Part shown: positions 10,658 through 52,841 of the stretch, in pieces | Position numbering within the stretch: the stretch's first letter is position 1 | Layout: each line of letters starts with the position of its first letter | Made by a program: the position numbers and the translations under genes | Assembly (NCBI RefSeq): GCF_020097815.1 | Contig: NZ_CP083663.1 | Span: 930,001 to 994,000, forward strand | Source: Haloprofundus salinisoli | GTDB taxonomy: Archaea; Halobacteriota; Halobacteria; Halobacteriales; Haloferacaceae | Length of the DNA: 64,000 bases | Direction of reading: 5' to 3' | Notes under the pieces: model-generated | The model's database searches: none | What the model was told of the DNA's origin: nothing | The model's input: the letters and a program-made list of their open reading frames with translations, nothing else

Positions 10658-10785
10658 AGTTAGCTGTGGTACTCGGTCTCGTATCGGTACGTCGTCTCCG
10701 GGTGGTTAACTCACTTTTCATCCGTGAATTTCTCGCCGTCGGGGCGATGGTTCGGAGCGCCGCTCGGCGGATGAGAACGGGGTAT

Positions 10786-10859
10786 GGGCCCTGCCGGATT
10801 TGAACCAACGACCACTCGGTTATGAGCCGAGCGCTCTAACCAGACTGAGCTAAGGGCCC
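10786..10859 (-). tRNA. tRNA with CAU anticodon (elongator Met or Ile2)
   Basis: A 74-nt cloverleaf with acceptor stem GGGCCCU/AGGGCCC, discriminator A, D-arm AGCUCAGUCUGGUUAGAGC, anticodon stem CUCGG/CCGAG with loop CUCAUAA, and T-arm with GGUUCAAAUCC. No intron and no encoded CCA. It is not the initiator: the anticodon stem lacks the three consecutive G-C pairs. The G-rich acceptor start and GGCU-x3-AACC loop region resemble archaeal tRNA-Ile more than Met, so a modified-C34 tRNA-Ile2 reading AUA is possible. Confidence 0.93.
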
Positions 10860-10981
10860 TCGTTCGTCGTACTATTGGGCTTCCCTTTAGCGTTATCTAT
10901 CGACGCTGTGGTTCCGGGGCCGGACGAGTAGTGGGGTCGGAAGAAGCGTCGCTCGTCGAAGCGACGTTCGAGAGAAAGCGA

Positions 10982-11054
10982 CGCCGTCGCCAGGACTCGA
11001 ACCTGGGACCACCTCGTTAACAGCGAGGTGCTCTACCAACTGAGCTACGACGGC
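10982..11054 (-). tRNA. tRNA-Asn (GUU)
   Basis: A 73-nt cloverleaf with acceptor GCCGUCG/CGACGGC and discriminator G. The anticodon loop CUGUUAA gives GUU, for asparagine codons AAC/AAU. The T-loop is GGUUCGAGUCC. It is 122 bp upstream of the CAU tRNA on the same strand; no intron. Confidence 0.96.
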
Positions 11055-52300: not shown

Positions 52301-52373
52301 CGCCCGAGGCGGGATTTGAACCCGCGTCACGACCGTGACAGGGTCGTATGATGGGCCACTACACCACCCGGGC
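52301..52373 (-). tRNA. tRNA-Asp (GUC), copy 1
   Basis: A 73-nt cloverleaf with acceptor GCCCGGG/CUCGGGC and discriminator G. Anticodon loop CUGUCAC gives anticodon GUC for aspartate. The T-arm is GGGUUCAAAUCCC. It is identical to the copy at 52769-52841 except one D-arm base (a C in the D-loop area instead of U). Both look functional. A TATA-like ATTAATAACC lies 30-40 bp upstream on the minus strand. Confidence 0.95.
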
Positions 52374-52434
52374 CTGAAACGCATCCGAGTGTACTGGTCG
52401 GGGTTATTAATGGGTGTCGATATCCGTTGCGAGC

Positions 52435-52674
52435 TGTGTAGTCAGCATCGACTCGGCCATCTCCACCAACTGTAGAGCTGTAGAGGTTGAACCGGATAGA
52501 GCCGTTCACCCAGTTTCCGGTTTTGCACTGAACGCGAGAGAGTGTTTCGTGGTCGTCGACAACTAAATCGTAGCGGTCACTGTCTCCGAATGGAACCGAA
52601 ACCGAGAATCCAAGGTTCATCAGCGAAGCAAGTATCACCGCTTCAGTTTCGTCACCTCGACGAGACGGATTCAT
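52435..52674 (-). pseudogene. Truncated PD-(D/E)xK endonuclease remnant
   Basis: About 80 codons starting MNPSRRGDETEAVILASLMN, then VPFGDSDRYDLVVDDHETLSRVQCKTGN. This is the N-terminal half of a haloarchaeal PD-(D/E)xK endonuclease (intron- or mobile-element-associated type), with the D...D-x-V, and Q-x-K positions of the nuclease core visible. After residue 80 (DADYT) the similarity stops, and the frame runs on into tRNA-Asp. The intact family is about 150-160 aa, so the C-terminal half is missing and the gene is probably dead. It is enclosed by two tRNA-Asp genes, as expected for a remnant of an integrated element. Confidence 0.72.
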
Positions 52675-52768
52675 ATTCCGGCATCTCGCCTGATCGGGTT
52701 TGAATCTGCAGATGACGGCACGTTCCGCGGTGAGACGCCCCGCTCACGGTTTGAGTTCAGTAAAATAA

Positions 52769-52841
52769 CGCCCGAGGCGGGATTTGAACCCGCGTCACGA
52801 CCGTGACAGGGTCGTATGATAGGCCACTACACCACCCGGGC
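52769..52841 (-). tRNA. tRNA-Asp (GUC), copy 2
   Basis: A 73-nt cloverleaf, same acceptor, anticodon loop and T-arm as copy 1; differs at one D-arm position. Upstream on the minus strand a GTTATTTACG tract (about 52865-52875) can serve as TATA box. The 395-bp spacer between the two tRNAs holds the endonuclease remnant. Confidence 0.96.

Follow-up and report, generated by a model that had tools for sequence, protein, structure and literature searches.

Between two tRNA-Asp genes of Haloprofundus salinisoli lies what is probably (we put the probability at roughly 0.75) the dead remains of a gene for a homing endonuclease that targeted the tRNA-Asp anticodon arm. The targets of this gene family would gain resistance either through a swap of the anticodon stem pair 28:42 or through a BHB intron. 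This reading draws on the 64,000-nucleotide stretch of DNA that was analyzed (the window), on the same locus in related genomes, and on a search for the nuclease family, PDDEXK_5 (PF11645), across haloarchaea.

As the preliminary description had reported, the window contains two tRNA-Asp genes that differ by a single base (T/C in the D-loop) across a 395-bp spacer, a pair from which the rpoH-rpoB operon diverges (Table 1). Its claim of ~80 endonuclease codons between them, stopping mid-domain and then running into a tRNA, was also borne out. Residues 1-80 of the open reading frame at 52327-52674 (minus strand) match PF11645 profile positions 1-82 of 138, scoring 79 bits against a cut-off of 26.1, and the reading frame continues into the second tRNA-Asp. 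In a genome-wide profile search, this was the sole PF11645 copy in its genome. The remnant keeps the N-terminal E and the YD and QxK motif residues, and its C-terminal half is gone. Pairwise alignment to the Haloprofundus marisrubri locus (genome G003) places a net ~217 bp in one large deletion, with inter-tRNA distances of 395 vs. 612 bp, and this single deletion explains the loss of both the C-terminal half and the stop codon. It spared the promoter-like region of the second tRNA, which matches G003 at 94% over 55 bp and genome G001 at 93% over 46 bp. The window copy is a dead member of the PDDEXK_5 endonuclease family, past its active life. A decayed third tRNA end had also been proposed in the spacer; the segment does not match the final 22 nt of tRNA-Asp even when four mismatches are allowed, and a T-arm-like stretch (AGGTTCAAATCCGG) occupies the equivalent place in G001, so that a T-arm remnant is a weak candidate here.

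Table 1. Features of the tRNA-Asp locus in the window
Feature	Position	Strand	Basis
tRNA-Asp(GTC), upstream of nuclease remnant	52769-52841	minus	ARAGORN; 28:42 = G-C (bases 52813, 52799)
tRNA-Asp(GTC), downstream of nuclease remnant	52301-52373	minus	ARAGORN; 28:42 = G-C (bases 52345, 52331)
PDDEXK_5 (PF11645) remnant, a-type, first 80 codons	52435-52674	minus	Pfam E 4.6e-22; ORF; alignment of relatives
Deletion scar, position approximate	52436-52437		Pairwise alignment to Haloprofundus marisrubri locus (G003)
Promoter-like region upstream of second tRNA-Asp (CCATTAATAACCCC)	52374-52433	minus	Conserved in sister genomes
Possible T-arm remnant (GCAGATTCAAACCCG), weak	52685-52715	minus	Below threshold; T-arm-like stretch at same place in G001

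The order tRNA-nuclease-tRNA is found at this locus in all five genomes of the genus, where the nuclease is full length in two (G002 and G003), broken in frame in one (G001), of another type and interrupted by an in-frame TAG in G004, and truncated in the window. The reading of this fragment as a dead mobile-type PD-(D/E)xK endonuclease, with intact relatives and a locus that varies among them, thus held up. Twin tRNA-Asp genes by themselves are ordinary: across the 148 genomes of the family, tandem copies 20-30 bp apart without a nuclease occur in many genera. Where a nuclease does lie beside tRNA-Asp, the tRNA is upstream only in 68 of 89 loci and present on both flanks in 21. Because nuclease-free tandems are common and bracketing is confined to these 21, we judged the second tRNA dispensable and rejected it as a required part of an element. 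The earlier proposal of an element that carries a complete tRNA copy is therefore only partly supported, but bracketing does recur, and in those 21 loci the tRNA may have been carried in. ARAGORN calls of long introns spanning the nuclease between tRNA-Asp genes were rejected as merely two tRNAs read as one. Duplicated tRNA-Asp genes are also found at other spacings; one genome (G326, locus L261) has three at an exact 803-bp spacing, a tandem duplication without a nuclease.

Throughout the class, members of this nuclease family are tied to tRNA genes, a link that the preliminary description overlooked. A genome-wide search blind to tRNA genes detected PF11645 in 57 of 148 family genomes and 199 of 391 haloarchaeal genomes, sampled at one per species, a design with within-species homing tracts outside its reach. 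We read 158 loci, comprising nearly all hits in the family and mostly the stronger hits outside it. At 149 of these a tRNA gene lay within 600 bp, compared with a chance expectation of ~2% of the genome by our own estimate from ~50 tRNA genes per genome, and 216 of 223 nearby tRNAs were on the same strand as the nuclease. The nine remaining loci were one nuclease at a distance of 758 bp from a tRNA-Lys gene, one enclosed by a tRNA-Lys intron (L249), and seven divergent loci (L097, L098, and L102-L106) with no INWA motif and no nearby tRNA. Another 20 loci gave the same tRNA-adjacent picture, and adjacency was seen in 68 of 71 named genome records, a set that overlaps the first loci. The adjacent tRNAs were Asp, Pro(UGG), Lys(UUU), Asn (with Met adjoining), Arg(UCU), Gln, a single Ser, and a single Tyr. 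On the nuclease protein tree, the nine target labels need 9 changes, meaning that each target is close to one clade; the tRNA-Asp allele needs 3, host family 17, and host genus 40. An ARAGORN tRNA-Trp call spanning the L299 nuclease shares its first base with a tRNA-Gly, and we dismissed it as false. In the open-access literature searched, we found no prior description of tRNA-linked PDDEXK_5 genes in haloarchaea.

Some viral relatives show the same arrangement. In Halorubrum virus HSTV-4, a PDDEXK_5 nuclease begins 3 bp past tRNA-Asn, and the relatives of Klebsiella phage FKP10 and of Vibrio phage phi-pp2 sit within tRNA arrays; the viral loci beside tRNA-Asn or in such arrays are L388:1393-1929 (HSTV-4), L391:1405-1932, and L392:1501-1950. 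The relatives of HATV-2 and EFP01 have no annotated tRNA nearby. A single-sequence scan of viral contigs with the G003 protein confirmed no relative, and phage records gave distant ones.

At tRNA-Asp, the pattern involves the anticodon stem. Pair 28:42 is either G-C (ACGAC..GTCGT) or A-T (ACAAC..GTTGT), and the nucleases fall into subtypes by motif (a, LYSST; b, THSQTT; c, KTASKTT), which we read by eye from the first 15 sequences and then applied onward. In those 15 loci, b-type nucleases stood beside A-T and a- and c-types beside G-C, with one exception (G102, an apparently intact b-type beside G-C). Over the next 74 loci the rule failed once, at L185, where the c-type gene has an in-frame TAG stop. 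In total, b-type nucleases accompanied A-T in 54 of 55 cases and a/c-types accompanied G-C in 33 of 34 (Fisher P = 4e-22, with relatedness ignored). Among further loci, one b-type nuclease (L300) lies beside a third allele. Both alleles occur beside a nuclease within 12 of 30 genera, while the remaining tRNA body is essentially unchanged. Both half-sites of the inverted repeat change together, which fits the requirement of two-fold symmetric recognition. Both 28:42 alleles also occur among genomes without the nuclease, and no nuclease remnant was seen in the 20 nuclease-free A-T loci read; candidate decayed nucleases in such genomes were rejected because even the top hits matched nothing but tRNA-derived residues in the window's read-through frame.

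Nucleases linked to tRNA-Pro have no accompanying intron and show a suggestive allele pattern within one genus only. Their reading frames are longer, at 270-388 aa (L036, L044, L071, L088, and L093 in genus g5; L038, L042, and L045 in g13), and in the g5 protein the nuclease domain seems to be duplicated in tandem, as in a fused dimer.

At other tRNAs, the nuclease is associated with introns in the same arm. An intron in tRNA-Lys(UUU) was present in 9 of 9 family genomes with a linked nuclease vs. ~16 of 137 without (Fisher P = 3e-8, relatedness ignored), and one in tRNA-Asn in 18 of 23 vs. ~16 of 122 (P = 9e-10, relatedness likewise ignored); the nuclease-free counts are approximate because intron status was read from BLAST E-values. 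The association persisted within genera, both for tRNA-Lys in g24, g27, and g28 (9/9 vs. 6/22, P = 2.5e-4) and for tRNA-Asn in g13 (13/18 vs. 1/12, P = 8e-4). In g13, all 13 intron-bearing copies had an intact-looking nuclease, and three of the five intronless ones had a broken nuclease (P = 0.012). There were exceptions in both directions: G040 and G137 have intact-looking nucleases beside an intronless tRNA-Asn, and several genomes have the intron and no nuclease. The introns lie at position 37/38, the canonical site, and of the 38 linked to a nuclease, 35 fit a strict BHB pattern with a 4-bp central helix and 3-nt bulges. In G159, the one genome representing its family in our set, the nuclease frame lies entirely inside a 451-nt BHB intron of tRNA-Lys(UUU) (L249:1205-1731, in nuclease orientation), with the same BHB core, CTTT/GAAG. 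A group I intron around this gene was rejected, as Rfam gave no match. We also observed tRNA-Asn genes, mostly intron-bearing, flanking an opposite-strand nuclease at L089, L108, and L086, of which the L089 and L108 nucleases are fragments.

We propose that these patterns reflect homing. The small PD-(D/E)XK protein would bind the inverted repeat that the anticodon stem's two strands create in DNA and cut tRNA-Asp genes of the other 28:42 allele, so that each enzyme would spare the allele beside it. Repair of the break from the nuclease-bearing chromosome would then copy in the nuclease gene along with the resistant tRNA allele. For tRNA-Asp, resistance would come from the G-C vs. A-T swap, and for tRNA-Lys, tRNA-Asn, and tRNA-Arg from a BHB intron, which would interrupt the site in DNA and be removed from the RNA by splicing. 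Most nuclease genes are freestanding, within a few hundred base pairs of their tRNA, and in one genome the gene resides in the intron itself. Decay by deletion, as in the window, would be the expected last phase of the homing cycle. Protection appears to be located in the anticodon arm rather than in a restored 3' end, and homing is the most economical reading of the family.

Alternatively, the nuclease and tRNA allele could form one recombining cassette in which the swap is irrelevant to cleavage. The two do lie within a few hundred base pairs of each other, close enough for joint exchange. Yet 28:42 follows the nuclease in 12 genera where the acceptor stem and other arms remain host-typical, and in other tRNA families it is this same arm that introns interrupt. 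We consider such co-transfer without resistance unlikely.

The size of the inserted segment bears on another explanation, in which tRNA genes serve as integration hot spots and the nuclease was left behind as cargo. In its favor, integration at tRNA genes is general, and many genomes have 22-nt tRNA 3' fragments downstream of tRNA-Asp. Against it, the tRNA-nuclease gap was too small for an integrase gene in the loci read, and none was seen in that interval. Moreover, the tRNA-Asn/tRNA-Met spacer within one genus measures 559-583 bp when occupied vs. 66-151 bp when empty, so the insert is little longer than the reading frame. Nor would leftover cargo lead one to expect targets that are nearly clade-specific or a tRNA allele that follows the nuclease, and we regard this account as decidedly improbable.

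Two further observations concern these sites. The window itself holds tRNA-Met and an intronless tRNA-Asn 122 bp apart (10785-11054), which looks like an empty tRNA-Asn nuclease site; at the same place, sister genomes G001 and G003 have a 32-nt tRNA-Asn intron and no nuclease. The 22-nt 3'-end copies occur downstream of both tRNA-Asp and tRNA-Lys (L015:1979-3006, oriented to the tRNA, L065, L058, and others), also where no nuclease was found, and often close a ~58-bp segment that has inverted T-arm sequences at its ends (GGATTTGAA..TTCAAATCC) and that L015 carries in both orientations.

The protein's predicted structure points toward a DNA-cutting enzyme. An AlphaFold2 model of the G003 protein (pLDDT 89) found its best PDB fold match in the homing endonuclease I-Ssp6803I (E = 8e-10, TM 0.74), with Hjc resolvases and restriction enzymes trailing far behind; the top four structure hits were chains of 2ost, and a sequence search of the PDB returned I-Ssp6803I as its single hit. 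Residues E11, D36, Q49, and K51 are invariant in an alignment of 14 relatives and, from this conservation, probably form a PD-(D/E)XK active site. These results weigh against an anticodon nuclease with an antidote, in which a protein toxin cuts the anticodon loop of the mature tRNA and the neighboring gene makes a resistant tRNA. That idea would accommodate both the tracking of the nuclease by the stem allele and the duplicated tRNA genes nearby. However, the closest characterized protein is a DNA homing endonuclease, and BHB introns associate with the nuclease even though, being removed from the RNA, they would not shield mature tRNA. Because introns cannot give that protection, a DNA target is favored, and the toxin reading seems very improbable. 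Domestication as a host factor, perhaps to keep tRNA copies alike or to aid intron handling, would suit the family's wide occurrence in the class and consistent position beside tRNA genes, but its presence is patchy even within genera and includes broken copies (the window, and stops in G004, G048, G088, G305, and G360), making this scarcely credible.

If homing is correct, its reach may extend well beyond the window. At slightly better than even odds, haloarchaea and some of their viruses carry homing drives on tRNA anticodon arms in an arms race with tRNA alleles, with two incompatible tRNA-Asp drives defined by the 28:42 states and BHB introns acting as travelling shields for tRNA-Lys, tRNA-Asn, and tRNA-Arg. 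The origin and spread of archaeal tRNA introns is an open question, and a published idea, due to Randau and Soll and discussed in PMC3293823, is that tRNA introns protect tRNA genes against invading elements. The nuclease family would be a matching invader, and introns or stem changes occur where it is found. BHB introns travelling with a nuclease would provide a concrete route for the gain and spread of archaeal tRNA introns, and homing would likewise explain why a tRNA gene that is universally required has paired base swaps at odds with the host tree. It would also give meaning to a family annotated as group I intron-associated in organisms where it is found without such introns.

The closest known system is I-Ssp6803I (I-SspI), a PD-(D/E)XK homing endonuclease from the group I intron of Synechocystis tRNA-fMet with a target in the anticodon region (PMC1995217). 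The haloarchaeal nuclease is likewise a small single-domain protein of the same fold, with the anticodon region of a tRNA gene as its presumed target. By contrast, it is usually freestanding beside an intact tRNA gene with no group I intron, and its family has several tRNA targets whose partner tRNA has a BHB intron or a stem-pair swap. Homing without introns is known from the freestanding Seg and Mob endonucleases of phage T4. By analogy with these, the haloarchaeal frame adjoins its presumed target rather than residing inside it and would spread with the neighboring resistant allele, but it has another nuclease fold, mainly cellular archaeal hosts, and a tRNA anticodon arm as its presumed target. 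LAGLIDADG genes occur inside BHB introns of archaeal rRNA, also linking a BHB intron with a homing endonuclease, and G159 offers a near counterpart within a tRNA gene. Still, the haloarchaeal family differs in being PD-(D/E)XK, in its association with tRNA instead of rRNA, and in lying mostly outside the intron.
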